Source: Ignavibacteria bacterium | GTDB taxonomy: Bacteria; Bacteroidota; Ignavibacteria; Kapaibacteriales; UBA2268 | Reading direction: 5' to 3' | Length of the DNA: 34,370 nucleotides | Assembly: GCA_012518115.1 (NCBI GenBank) | Contig: JAAYTD010000045.1 | Coordinates: 1-34,370, forward strand | Shown: positions 13,285 through 33,475 of the stretch, piece by piece | Layout: each line of letters starts with the position of its first letter | Numbering within the stretch: the stretch's first letter is position 1 | Notes under the pieces: model-generated | What the model was told of the DNA's origin: nothing | What the model saw: the letters and a program-made list of their open reading frames with translations, nothing else | Database searches by the model: none | Program-made: the position numbers and the translations under genes

Positions 13285-13372
13285 GAAATTTTATTTCCCT
13301 GAAGGTTGGGCTACAAATTCCCTTTCGGGACGAAGGGGTGGCAAACGAAGTTTGACGGGGGTAGTCTATAAT
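13285..13372. repeat. Mosaic GC-rich hairpin repeat (reverse orientation) plus GGATTA-type tract
   Basis: Contains TTCCCTTTCGGGACGAAGGG, TGGCAAACGAAGTTTGACGG and GGTAGTC, the reverse complement of the unit seen at 346-520. It is followed (13377-13417) by a GGATTAACAGGATTAAAGG-type tract; the part ATTAAAGGATTAGCAGGATT recurs just before the element at 27703. No coding content. With the following repeats it fills the gene-free stretch 13262-13811. Confidence 0.75.
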
Positions 13373-13424
13373 TGTTTGAACCGGGATTAACAGGATTAAA
13401 GGATTAGCAGGATTATTGACACAT

Positions 13425-13560
13425 GTGCCGTAGGCACAAAATTTCGGTAAAAGAAATGTAATCTTACTCATCTCGTCCCGTACGGGACGAAACATAAGCA
13501 AGTATAAGTTTTTACCGATATTTAATTCCTACGGGATTTATGAGAATATATAATTCATAA
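13425..13560 (+). repeat. 136-bp nested-palindrome element, copy A
   Basis: It starts with GTGCCGTAGGCAC (5-bp stem) and has outer arms TTTCGGTAAAA and TTTTACCGATA that pair across about 60 bases. Inside is the perfect 18-base palindrome TCGTCCCGTACGGGACGA, and near the end is ATTCCTACGGGATT. The same order of palindromes occurs at 27703-27840 and 30091-30227, always in the same orientation. There is no ORF of note. The fold suggests a structured RNA or a non-autonomous mobile element of REP/MITE type. Confidence 0.8.
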
Positions 13561-27390: not shown

Positions 27391-27470
27391 GAATTTTCAT
27401 AATTTTTCTTTGGTGCGAAAGGGTAGTCGTTTTGAAGTTAGAAGAGAGAAGCAATTGACAATATTTTTTA

Positions 27471-27563
27471 AACCGCAAAGAACACAAAGAGTTACGCAAA
27501 GAGCGCAAAGAAAAATATCAAGCCAAAAATCATAGAAATCATAGAAATCCCATAAATCACAGT
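27471..27563. repeat. CGCAAAG-type and AAATCATAG-type simple repeats
   Basis: The segment 27471-27511 contains four variants of an ACCGCAAAG / ACGCAAAGA / GCGCAAAG unit spaced about 9-12 bases apart. Next comes a tandem AAATCATAG AAATCATAG AAATCC run. Such tracts recur in intergenic DNA of many bacteria. The gene-free stretch 27391-27972 consists almost wholly of this and the three repeat elements that follow. Confidence 0.7.
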
Positions 27564-27681
27564 TTAGACAAAAAGAGGAGAATTTCCGCTCAGCGAAGTT
27601 GGCAAATTCCCCTTTGGTACGAAGGGGTGGCAAGCGAAGCTTGACGGGGTAGTCAATAATTGTCTGAACTGTGATTTATGG
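27550..27681. repeat. 132-bp element with 22-bp terminal inverted repeats enclosing a mosaic repeat
   Basis: The left end 27550-27571 (CCATAAATCACAGTTTAGAC and two more bases) and the right end 27660-27681 are inverted copies with a single mismatch. Between them lies a mosaic repeat in reverse orientation: GAGGAGAATTTCCGCTCAGC, CCCCTTTGGTACGAAGGGG, GGCAAGCGAAGCTTGACGGG, GTAGTC. That mosaic is repeated almost exactly at 27872-27955. The layout resembles a small non-autonomous transposable element, but no target duplication is obvious. Confidence 0.65.
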
Positions 27682-27702
27682 AATTAAAGGATTAGCAGGA
27701 TT

Positions 27703-27840
27703 GTGCTGTAGGCACAAAATATCGGTAAAAGAAATGTAATCTTACTCATCTCGTCCCGTACGGGACGAAACATAAGCAAGTATAAGTTTTTACCGATATT
27801 TAATCCCTACGGGATTTTTAAGGATATATAATTCATAACC
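27703..27840 (+). repeat. 138-bp nested-palindrome element, copy B
   Basis: This is the best-preserved copy. Outer arms AAATATCGGTAAAA (27717-27730) and TTTTACCGATATTT (27788-27801) pair perfectly over 14 bp. The 18-base palindrome TCGTCCCGTACGGGACGA (27751-27768) lies within, and AATCCCTACGGGATT (27802-27816) just outside. The leading GTGCTGTAGGCAC has one changed stem base relative to copy A. It is nearly identical to copy A (13425) over the full length and is flanked on both sides by mosaic repeats. Confidence 0.85.
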
Positions 27841-27955
27841 ACACTCCCCCGCTTCGCGGGTACTCCTCTACAAGAGGAGAATTTCCGCTCAGCGAAGTTG
27901 GCAAATTCCCCTTTGGTACGAAGGGGTGGCAAGCGAAGCTTGACGGGTAGTTAAT
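27841..27955. repeat. Mosaic GC-rich hairpin repeat (reverse orientation)
   Basis: Contains CCCCCGCTTCGCGGG, CTCCTCTACAAGAGGAG, then a block of about 80 bases nearly identical to 27571-27653 (AATTTCCGCTCAGCGAAGTT, CCCCTTTGGTACGAAGGGG, GGCAAGCGAAGCTTGACGGG). It ends 18 bases from the stop codon of the GntR gene. Confidence 0.8.
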
Positions 27956-30008: not shown

Positions 30009-30090
30009 TCTTTTTTAAAAAAGATAGTATTTTTATTAATTAAATAATTTTATAAAAAAGTTTAGGGTAGAGCAAAGTAAACATAAATAT

Positions 30091-30227
30091 GTGCTGTAGG
30101 CACAAAATATCGGTAAAAGAAATATAATCTACTAATCTCGTCCCATACGGGACAAAACATAAGCAAGTATAAGTTTTTACTGATATTTAATCCCTACGGG
30201 ATTTTTAAGGATATATAAATTATAACC
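30091..30227 (+). repeat. 137-bp nested-palindrome element, copy C (decayed)
   Basis: Same order of parts as copies A and B: GTGCTGTAGGCAC, AAATATCGGTAAAA, the central TCGTCCCATACGGGACAA, TTTTACTGATATTT, AATCCCTACGGGATT. The central palindrome has two changed bases and the right outer arm one, which weakens the pairing. Copies A and B are closer to each other than to C. It sits upstream of the LRR gene and is followed by a mosaic repeat. Confidence 0.8.
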
Positions 30228-30467: not shown

Positions 30468-31790
30468 ATGACACAAAGAACTATTAAATTAACAAACTTT
30501 TTGCTAACATCTTTAGCATTCTTTATTTTCATTTCTCAGTCTGCATTTTCTGATGACTTAATAACAAATACAAGATTAAAAAACTGGATAAAAGCTAATA
30601 CAGATAAGCTACCTGAAGTTGTTATAAATGAAGATGGTGGAATAGAGAATACTACAGAAAATTTAGAAGCATTAGCAAAAATAGAGGAATTAAATTGTAT
30701 TTATGGAAATCTTATTAGCATAGATGAATTAATCAGACATATGCCGAATTTGAAGAAGTTAATGTGTTACAAAAATGCTTTGATTGAATTAGATTTAAGT
30801 AATAACATAAAATTGGAGGTATTGAATTGTTATAATAGTCAACTGACTAGCTTAGATGTAAGCAAAAATATAAAATTAACACATTTATATTGTTATGAAA
30901 ATCTATTAACCAACTTGGATATAAGTAAAAATATAGAATTAGTATGGTTAGAGTGTTATACTAACCAACTAAGCAGCTTAGATGTAAGTAATAATATAGA
31001 ACTAAAAACATTGATGTGTTCTGTTAATCCATTAATTAACTTAGATGTAAGTAAAAATATAAAATTAGAAGTATTGTATTGTTACGCTAATCAATTAAGT
31101 ATCTTAGATTTAAGTAACAACGTAGAACTAAAAACATTGATGTGTTCTGACAATCAATTAACCAACTTAGATGTGAGTAATAATATAAAATTAACACATC
31201 TAGATTGTAATAATAATCAACTAAATACTTTGGATATAAGTAATAATATAAAATTAACATATTTATCTTGTTCTCAAAATCAATTAACCAACTTAGACCT
31301 TACAAATAATTTAGAATTAGGCGGATTATCTTGTTCTGAAAATCAACTAATCAACTTAGATGTAAGTAAGCATATCAAATTAACACAATTGCATTGTAAT
31401 AATAATCAGCTAACTAGCTTAGACATTAGTCCGATACCATATTTAAGGTTACTAAGCTGTTGTAATCAAGCGGAAGGTTTTATTTTGTACTTAACTAAAG
31501 AACAAAAAAGTAGATTTACTGAAAAAGATTATTGTAGTGCTATACTCAAAGAGGAAAAAAGTATTTGTGAAATAGAATGGTTAGATATTCATCCTAATCC
31601 TACTGCAGATAAGTTTTTTATTGAAAGCAAATTCTTTGATGATGAAATAAAAATATTAAATTTAGCGGGTGAAGTTTTATATCGAGAAATACTTAATACT
31701 GAAAAAACAGAAATTGATATTTCAAATCTGCCGGCGGGAGTGTATTTTGTAATAACAAAAGGAAAAATAGGAAAAGTTGTTAAAAATTAG
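30468..31790 (+). CDS. Secreted Cys-ladder leucine-rich repeat protein with T9SS sorting domain (copy 1)
   Basis: A 440-residue protein. It has a signal peptide (1-29, ending SQSAFS), a short N-terminal cap (about 30-100), then eleven to twelve 21-residue LRR units (about 100-345) of the form LxxLxCxxNQLTxLDVSxNIK. A Cys recurs at the same place in each unit, which in a folded LRR solenoid stacks into a ladder, as described for Listeria internalin J. The last 75 residues are a type A T9SS sorting domain (WLDIHPNPTADKFFI, then ILNLAGEVLYRE, ISNLPAGVYFVI). It should be exported by Sec, carried across the outer membrane by T9SS and fixed to or shed from the surface. The binding partner is unknown. 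GGAG precedes the ATG. Confidence 0.88.
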   Translation: MTQRTIKLTNFLLTSLAFFIFISQSAFSDDLITNTRLKNWIKANTDKLPEVVINEDGGIENTTENLEALAKIEELNCIYGNLISIDELIRHMPNLKKLMCYKNALIELDLSNNIKLEVLNCYNSQLTSLDVSKNIKLTHLYCYENLLTNLDISKNIELVWLECYTNQLSSLDVSNNIELKTLMCSVNPLINLDVSKNIKLEVLYCYANQLSILDLSNNVELKTLMCSDNQLTNLDVSNNIKLTHLDCNNNQLNTLDISNNIKLTYLSCSQNQLTNLDLTNNLELGGLSCSENQLINLDVSKHIKLTQLHCNNNQLTSLDISPIPYLRLLSCCNQAEGFILYLTKEQKSRFTEKDYCSAILKEEKSICEIEWLDIHPNPTADKFFIESKFFDDEIKILNLAGEVLYREILNTEKTEIDISNLPAGVYFVITKGKIGKVVKN

Positions 31791-32054: not shown

Positions 32055-33245
32055 ATGACAAAAAAAATAACAAATCTTGTATTAATGCCCTTAGCATTAT
32101 TTATTTTCATTTCTCAATCTGCATTTTCTAATGAATTAATAACAGATTCAAAATTAAAAGAATGGATAAAATACTGTAAAAGTCAATTACCTGGAGTTGT
32201 TGTAAATGAAGATGGTGGAATAGATAGTACTACAGCGAATTTAGAAGCATTAGCAAAAATAGAGGAGTTGACTTGTAGCTCTTCCAGTCTTGTTAGCATA
32301 GATGAATTAATTAGACATATGACGAGTTTGAAGACGTTAGTTTGTTCTAATAATCCACTATACACCTTAGACTTAACAAATAATATAGAATTAAAAACAT
32401 TAGAGTGTTATAATACTCAACTAAGCACCTTAGATGTTAAAAATAACATGAAGTTAGAAAAACTGTATTGTTGGAGTAATCAACTAACTAACTTAGATGT
32501 AAGTCAAAATATAGAACTAACAAATTTAATATGCGCTAGTAATCAGTTAACTACCTTAGACTTAACAAATAATATAAAATTAGAAGAATTGAATTATGTT
32601 TTTAATCAAATAAGCAGTTTAGATTTAAGTAAGCACATAAAATTAACAAGTTTAAAATGTGCTTATAATCAATTAACTACCTTAGATGTAAGTAATAACA
32701 TAGAACTGACACTATTAAATTGTTCTGGCAATCAATTAACTATCTTAGATTTAACAAATAATATAAAATTAGAAGAATTACATTGTGATAATACTCAACT
32801 AAGTACCTTAGATGTTAAAAATAACATGAAGCTAGAAAAACTGTATTGTTGGAGTAATCAACTAGCTAGATTAGATATTACTTCGCTACCAAATTTAGGA
32901 AAGCTACAGTGTTGTAATCAAGCGGAAGGTTTTATTCTTTATTTAACTAAAAAACAAAAAAGTAAATTTACAGAAGCAAACTATTGCAATGCTATACTTA
33001 AAGAAAAAGACGGAAGTATTTGCGAAATAGAATGGTTAGATATTTACCCTAATCCGACTGCAGGCAAGTTTTTTATCGATAGTAAATTCTTGTCTGACGA
33101 AATAAAAATATTAAATTTAGCGGGTGAAGTTTTATATCGAGAAACACTTAATGCTGAAAAGACAGAAATTGATATTTCAAATCTGCCGGCGGGAGTGTAT
33201 TTCGTAATAACAAAAGGAAAAGTAGGAAAAGTTATTAAAAATTAG
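32055..33245 (+). CDS. Secreted Cys-ladder leucine-rich repeat protein with T9SS sorting domain (copy 2)
   Basis: A 396-residue paralogue of the preceding gene with the same parts: signal peptide (1-29), cap, about ten 21-residue Cys-containing LRR units, and a type A T9SS tail (WLDIYPNPTAGKFFI, ISNLPAGVYFVI) almost identical to copy 1. Two segments 378 bases apart (starting 32411 and 32789) are nearly identical over about 75 bases and both encode NTQLSTLDVKNNMKLEKLYC, the mark of a recent duplication of repeat units within the gene. One unit (LNYVFNQ) lacks the Cys. The repeats differ from copy 1 much more than the two ends do. AGGAG precedes the ATG. Confidence 0.88.
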   Translation: MTKKITNLVLMPLALFIFISQSAFSNELITDSKLKEWIKYCKSQLPGVVVNEDGGIDSTTANLEALAKIEELTCSSSSLVSIDELIRHMTSLKTLVCSNNPLYTLDLTNNIELKTLECYNTQLSTLDVKNNMKLEKLYCWSNQLTNLDVSQNIELTNLICASNQLTTLDLTNNIKLEELNYVFNQISSLDLSKHIKLTSLKCAYNQLTTLDVSNNIELTLLNCSGNQLTILDLTNNIKLEELHCDNTQLSTLDVKNNMKLEKLYCWSNQLARLDITSLPNLGKLQCCNQAEGFILYLTKKQKSKFTEANYCNAILKEKDGSICEIEWLDIYPNPTAGKFFIDSKFLSDEIKILNLAGEVLYRETLNAEKTEIDISNLPAGVYFVITKGKVGKVIKN

Positions 33246-33308: not shown

Positions 33309-33428
33309 AGGAGCTCCTATTGTCTGAACTATGATTATGATTAGTGTGATTTTGAGGTGTTTTTAAAATTCCCCTTCCCAGAAGGAGTGGCAGGCGAAGC
33401 CTGACGGGGTAGTCTATAATTGTCTGAA
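33309..33428. repeat. Duplicated LRR 3' flank ending in a mosaic repeat (reverse orientation)
   Basis: 33309-33370 repeats 31851-31910. It leads into AATTCCCCTTCCCAGAAGGA, GTGGCAGGCGAAGCCTGACG, GGGTAGTC and ATTGTCTGAACC, a well-preserved mosaic unit. It ends about 50 bases from the nhaA stop. Confidence 0.75.
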
Positions 33429-33475
33429 CCTTACCACAAACTAAAAAACGTCCCGTCTACAATTTTGTTTTCTAT

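Follow-up and report, generated by a model that had tools for sequence, protein, structure and literature searches.

A three-hairpin intergenic repeat of an Ignavibacteria genome, probably a gene-less derivative of TnpA subclass 1.2 units

The intergenic element found in three copies in the stretch of Ignavibacteria DNA analysed here (the window, 34,370 nucleotides) is probably a non-autonomous, REPIN-like mobile repeat and a gene-less derivative of units of the HuH/Y1 transposase TnpA subclass 1.2. Its copies, their architecture, the compensation of its stems, the proximity of related units to tnpA1.2 genes, and the matching spacing of their parts were observed directly and are described below.

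Architecture and copies of the element

The element is 114 bp long and is composed of an outer hairpin, an arm, a central palindrome, the inverted arm, and a second outer hairpin (Table 1). The hairpins have stems of 5–7 bp and loops of 3–4 nt; GTAG is found in the element within the hairpin loop (CCGTAGG) and within the arm (GGTAG). Three copies with the same order of parts had been reported in a preliminary description, with A and B almost identical and C decayed, and all three were recovered. Over 143 nt compared without gaps, copy A shares 95% identity with copy B and 71% with copy C; copy C contains indels, and its gapped identity to copy B is 92%. The 14 bp arms (AAATATCGGTAAAA/TTTTACCGATATTT) given in that description for the element as a whole are perfect in copy B, whereas the arms of copy A contain one mismatch (ATTTC), and in copy C the right arm carries one change (ACTGATAT) and the central palindrome two (CATAC..GGACAA). 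Copy B folded with z=−5.3 whether treated as DNA or as RNA, and none of 200 shuffled sequences folded equally well; together with the number of copies in the genome, this places the element well outside chance expectation.

Table 1. Positions of the element copies, their parts, and the adjoining repeats in the window.
Feature	Positions	Strand	Remarks
Copy A (alpha subfamily)	13424–13538	+	from sequence and genome comparison
Copy B (alpha subfamily), main subject of study	27702–27816	+	from sequence and genome comparison
Copy C (diverged alpha copy)	30090–30203	+	left flank AAACATAAATATGTGC like that of beta copies
Copy B, left outer hairpin TGTGCTGTAGGCACA	27702–27716		loop GTA, core CYGTAGG; compensated in relatives
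Copy B, left arm AAATATCGGTAAAA	27717–27730	+	counterpart at tnpA1.2 genes, read inward: AAATATYGGTAGAA
Copy B, central palindrome TCGTCCCGTACGGGACGA	27751–27768		34 nt to left hairpin, matching the flanks of tnpA1.2
Copy B, right (inverted) arm TTTTACCGATATTT	27788–27801	−	from sequence
Copy B, right outer hairpin AATCCCTACGGGATT	27802–27816		inward core CCGTAGG; stem unlike that of left hairpin
Copy A, central palindrome	13473–13490		from sequence
Copy C, decayed central palindrome TCGTCCCATACGGGACAA	30138–30155		from sequence
Neighbouring repeat module (GGGGTAGTC..TTGTCTGAAC..AAAGGATTAGCAGGATT)	27646–27701	+	outside the element proper; precedes most alpha copies
Right tail TTTAAGGATATATAATTCATAACC	27817–27840	+	common to other hairpin repeats in the genome; membership in element uncertain

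The genome of origin (G000) is a 2.48 Mb draft in 92 contigs, 97% complete; its membership of the Bacteroidota is indicated by type IX secretion tails and by an EF-G2 whose best match is of the Bacteroidetes type. At least 29 complete copies were counted in it, 21 near-identical (alpha) and 8 diverged (beta), along with one further fragment at a contig end (L024). Because mean pairwise identity is 95% within alpha, 89% within beta, and 77% between the two, amplification is, judged by these identities, recent and repeated. The shared orientation described for the three copies holds within the window, whereas both orientations occur in the genome. The intergenic position likewise holds for all copies but one (L026), which overlaps a 100-aa ORF that we regard as spurious; no copy lies within a credible gene.

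The left-hand repeat module adjoins 19 of the 21 alpha copies, in two junction forms, so the spreading unit would often, or at least in part, have been larger than the element. The module is also present elsewhere in the genome without the element, and the beta copies as well as L018 and L021 contain the same element next to a different left flank. The right-hand tail also accompanies other hairpin families of the genome. Intergenic regions are mosaics of repeat modules, and several end families evidently coexist in this genome: further hairpin repeat families were found at L217–L226, for example AACCCCGTAGGGGTGACA.. with an inverted partner, and these include ATAATGTCATCCCTACGGGATT together with a right tail identical to that of the alpha copies. 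Other dispersed modules (CAAATTCCCCTTCGGGACGAAGGGGTGGCAAGCGAAGCTTGACGGGGTAGTC; TTGTCTGAAC..AGGATTAGCAGGATT) contribute to the intergenic mosaic of the window at 345–402, 13314–13380, 27573–27701, 27872–27947, and 33381–33429, and a AACCGCAAAGAACACAAAGAGTTACGCAAAGAGCGCAAAG repeat occupies 27470–27515, with a second copy of similar type beside L264. Two adjacent leucine-rich-repeat genes (30468–31790 and 32055–33245), with type IX secretion tails and an internal periodicity of 63 bp, are apparently a recent duplication.

Stem compensation in relatives and linkage to tnpA subclass 1.2

A covariance model prepared from the copies retrieved the same element from G002 and G004 (same family) and from G051 (same order), and a second model, to which the copies of G004 had been added, gave matches in 15 of 123 genomes of the order. 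No element was found by covariance model in the congener G001; dcuC, the gene upstream of copy B, is present there with no element seen after it, but the next gene differs, synteny having changed, so this locus gives no clean empty site. The closest relatives retain a length of approximately 114–124 nt with different letters, and relatives from other genera and families keep architecture and length while differing in sequence. The single-end pattern GTAGGNANNNNATATCGGTAGAA matched 9 of 395 genomes of the phylum, and its reversed control gave 0 matches.

In an alignment covering three genera, 92% of outer-hairpin and arm cells are paired, versus at most 48% when the partners were slid. Altogether 13 pairs are altered on both sides, with a score of 0.398 versus 0.155 for shuffled alignments; because of the common ancestry of the aligned sequences, the shuffle counts cannot be read as probabilities. 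In the arms, covariation might also come about if both ends were one recognition motif, inverted. This does not explain the covariation inside the outer hairpins, where two pairs of helix 1 and four pairs of helix 3 (the right outer hairpin, 99% paired) have both sides altered. The reading as a REP- or MITE-like element in the preliminary description, which had named a lack of further copies, of conserved ends, and of compensation as refuting findings, is supported by the 29 genome copies, the conserved ends, and the stem changes compensated between genomes.

Repeat-bearing genomes were scanned for Y1_Tnp. In G004, three complete elements form an array next to the start of a tnpA1.2 gene (C85:17391–17846), at a distance of approximately 30 bp, and Y1 genes in G112, G015, G051, G240, and G265 are flanked by hairpin-plus-arm units like those of the element. 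Tandem hairpin-plus-arm units with a period of approximately 292 bp were also observed in G265 (C26:7494–9112; L087, L124), ending beside a tnpA1.2 gene. The linked proteins contain D-H-x-H, WQ, and Y-I-x-N-Q-x-x-H-H, which is the signature of subclass 1.2; a profile of these proteins from the relatives matches the solved TnpA structures of ISDra2 and IS608 (E=7e-16 for ISDra2-type chains), and an AlphaFold model of one tnpA1.2 protein has a mean pLDDT of 87. By these motifs and profile matches, the linked enzyme is a TnpA_Y1 of subclass 1.2, nearest to the TnpA of IS200/IS605 and not a classical RAYT. A Y1-type transposase gene with the same ends in its flanks, as anticipated in the preliminary description, is thus present in relatives.

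Since the first 22 genomes were selected with a bias toward repeat bearers, 80 subclass 1.2 loci were collected by protein alone. Most of these loci are from Bacteroidota; Ignavibacteria, Balneolaceae, and a small number of MAGs with other labels are also represented. Hairpins were scored when perfect, with a stem of at least 5 and a loop of 3–4. Their density across the 80 loci fell approximately 15-fold, from 10.8 per kb in the 100 bp next to tnpA1.2 to 0.71 per kb at a distance of 1.5–2.4 kb, and hairpins were present within 300 bp on both sides in 55 of the 72 loci with full flanks, versus 8% for displaced positions. Nine other Y1 genes, a small comparison, had 0 or 1 hairpin per flank. 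The commonest loops in the tnpA1.2 flanks were CC-GTA-GG and CC-GTTA-GG, accompanied by the inward arm AAATATYGGTAGAA; a strict inward-arm pattern matched both flanks in only 22 of 72 loci. Outer and inner hairpins were separated by a median of 36.5 nt, with 80 of 98 pairs between 30 and 42 nt.

No Y1 genes were found in the own genome by Pfam search, and no intact tnpA1.2 was detected in the 97%-complete draft by Pfam search combined with a 21-row profile. A relic of tnpA subclass 1.2 (C8:4801–4977; L235), consisting of 59 C-terminal amino acids with one in-frame stop, was recognised by the 21-row profile only. Decayed GAA-loop double hairpins follow it downstream, and a repeat module (GTCTGAAC..GATT) abuts its truncated end. 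Because these flanks are of the GAA-loop type, the relic probably belongs to another subfamily and is not the enzyme for the copies described here.

Proposed derivation and alternative explanations

In the window element the outer hairpins stand 34 and 33 nt from the central palindrome, which matches the spacing in tnpA1.2 flanks. The perfect palindrome CCCGTACGGG equals the left half of CCCGTAGGG joined to the right half of CCCTACGGG, and the central palindrome would accordingly represent two fused inner hairpins (CCCGT joined to ACGGG). Families with a GTA loop fit such a fused-hairpin centre, whereas the GAA-loop families (G002, G102, G025) have ordinary central loops and look unfused. Two gene-less loci possess both inner hairpins, with spacings of 35 and 34 nt (G113:C384, L067) and of 37 and 39 nt (G015:C56, L071); they look like stages on the way from tnpA1.2 units to the three-hairpin element and fit a deletion series. 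From the matching spacing, the join in the palindrome, and these two loci, we infer that the window element arose from a tnpA1.2 unit by deletion of the gene and fusion of the inner hairpins.

The full unit, as reconstructed from relatives, would consist of an outer hairpin (core CCGTAGG or a variant), the arm AAATATYGGTAGAA, approximately 20 nt, an inner hairpin, and tnpA1.2, followed by the same parts inverted. Loss of the gene and fusion of the two inner hairpins would leave one perfect palindrome. By analogy with IS200/IS605 and REP biology, the three hairpins may form when the DNA becomes single-stranded, as may happen on the lagging strand, and TnpA1.2 acting in trans may recognise the hairpin and arm at both ends, cut, and join. 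Copies would be deposited in this manner, those between genes being tolerated, and the neighbouring repeat module of the alpha copies would have been carried along in at least part of the spread. The supplying transposase seems to have been lost from the genome or to lie concealed in a gap of the assembly. The transposase-driven spread in trans put forward in the preliminary description is supported by the Y1 link seen in relatives; the movement itself stays a proposal here, and the own draft genome yielded no intact transposase. Deletion, recognition, cleavage, and movement in trans are all to be read in this conditional sense. It is slightly more likely than not that TnpA1.2 defines a single-strand transposable element type of its own in the Bacteroidota and neighbouring phyla, having inverted ends with two hairpins each around the conserved arm AAATATYGGTAGAA and its own gene-less three-hairpin derivatives, of which the window element would be one.

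The element might instead be a passive module of the mosaic intergenic repeats, multiplied solely through recombination or another mobile composite, in which case the resemblance of its ends to those of tnpA1.2 units would be a fossil. The flanking modules common to most alpha copies and the failure to find an intact tnpA1.2 in the own genome agree with this explanation, which is nevertheless unlikely, in that the beta copies, L018, and L021 are the same element with a different left flank, complete elements adjoin tnpA1.2 in G004, and the genome contains several different hairpin families. We consider it quite improbable that the element is a structured RNA or a transcript-end element (a bidirectional terminator or mRNA stabiliser) that is kept at gene ends by selection and not by mobility, even though it has a stable RNA fold and compensated hairpin stems and the gene pairs around its copies are convergent more often than divergent (12 convergent, 12 tandem, and 4 divergent, against a naive expectation of 1:2:1). 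The structured RNA family offered as an option in the preliminary description is disfavoured, as no terminator-like site was found in the element, promoters around copy B are not in excess, and the only Rfam matches in the window are two tRNAs. Furthermore, the ends are inverted copies of one DNA unit, which an RNA role would not need, hairpin-plus-arm units cluster beside tnpA1.2 genes, and no copies were found in the congener G001.

Inverted arms, a fixed length of approximately 114–121 bp, and high identity among copies would also suit a MITE of a conventional double-strand DDE transposon, whose ordinary terminal inverted repeats the arms and hairpins would then be. This is very improbable: the adjoining gene in relatives encodes a Y1/HuH enzyme (the transposase searches covered Y1 only), visual inspection of a set of copy junctions revealed no target-site duplication, and the outer stems differ between the two ends yet stay paired, so it is the hairpin form that is kept and not the stem sequence.

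Comparison with known systems

A text search of the literature for the motif strings returned unrelated papers only, and in the literature on subclass 1.2 and on RAYTs and REPINs in Bacteroidetes no such repeats were found reported. Because subclass 1.2 was listed with REP "no" by Quentin et al. in 2018, and generally without IS200-type end structures (PMC6006769), the element appears to represent an undescribed repeat class. It provides a candidate DNA substrate that can be tested in vitro to a little-known transposase subclass that has been reported without REP and IS features, and a ready annotation for abundant intergenic palindromes of Bacteroidota. REP/REPIN biology is extended to this phylum, with an end design built on loop and arm motif in place of a GTAG foot, and a genome with at least 29 copies and only a broken transposase fragment would offer a natural case for the fate of repeats after loss of the enzyme.

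The linked genes share with TnpA subclass 1.2 (PMC6006769) the same motifs (DH[IV]H, WQ, YIxNQxxHH) and the same range, Bacteroidetes; that subclass is listed without REPs, whereas most Bacteroidota loci examined here have two-sided hairpins. Among REPs, the GTAG- and CGTC-tagged types are likewise short extragenic palindromes, the CGTC type being known from Bacteroidetes (PMC3733652). CGTC REPs have an 8–9 bp stem starting with A–T pairs, a 4–5 nt loop, and mostly a CCA-type tail (PMC3733652); the element differs in its 5–7 bp stems, its 3–4 nt loops, and the lack of a CCA-type tail, and falls outside that type.

In the IS200/IS605 family, which also includes gene-less derivatives, the enzymes of IS608 and ISDra2 are the nearest solved relatives of the enzyme linked here, and subterminal hairpins stand at both ends, as is the case here. 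The ends of IS200/IS605 elements are not known to be inverted repeats. In contrast, the present element has inverted ends and a conserved arm, each end of the full unit would have two hairpins, and it cannot be placed in that family.

With the REPINs and BIMEs of RAYTs (TnpA_REP) in Pseudomonas and E. coli (PMC3116915, PMC8266576) the element has in common an inverted palindromic pair, a large hairpin, intergenic location, and many copies, as well as compensatory changes, units at a Y1/HuH gene located elsewhere (REPtron-like), and the lack of a gene of its own. It differs from them in that, by eye, no GTAG stands at the foot of a hairpin in the element or in the tnpA flanks inspected, each end comprises an outer hairpin and an arm, a third, central hairpin is added, and the linked enzyme in relatives is of subclass 1.2 and not of a RAYT subclass. 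The element works most like a REPIN, and is set apart from REPs by its lack of a GTAG foot and by the subclass of the linked enzyme.
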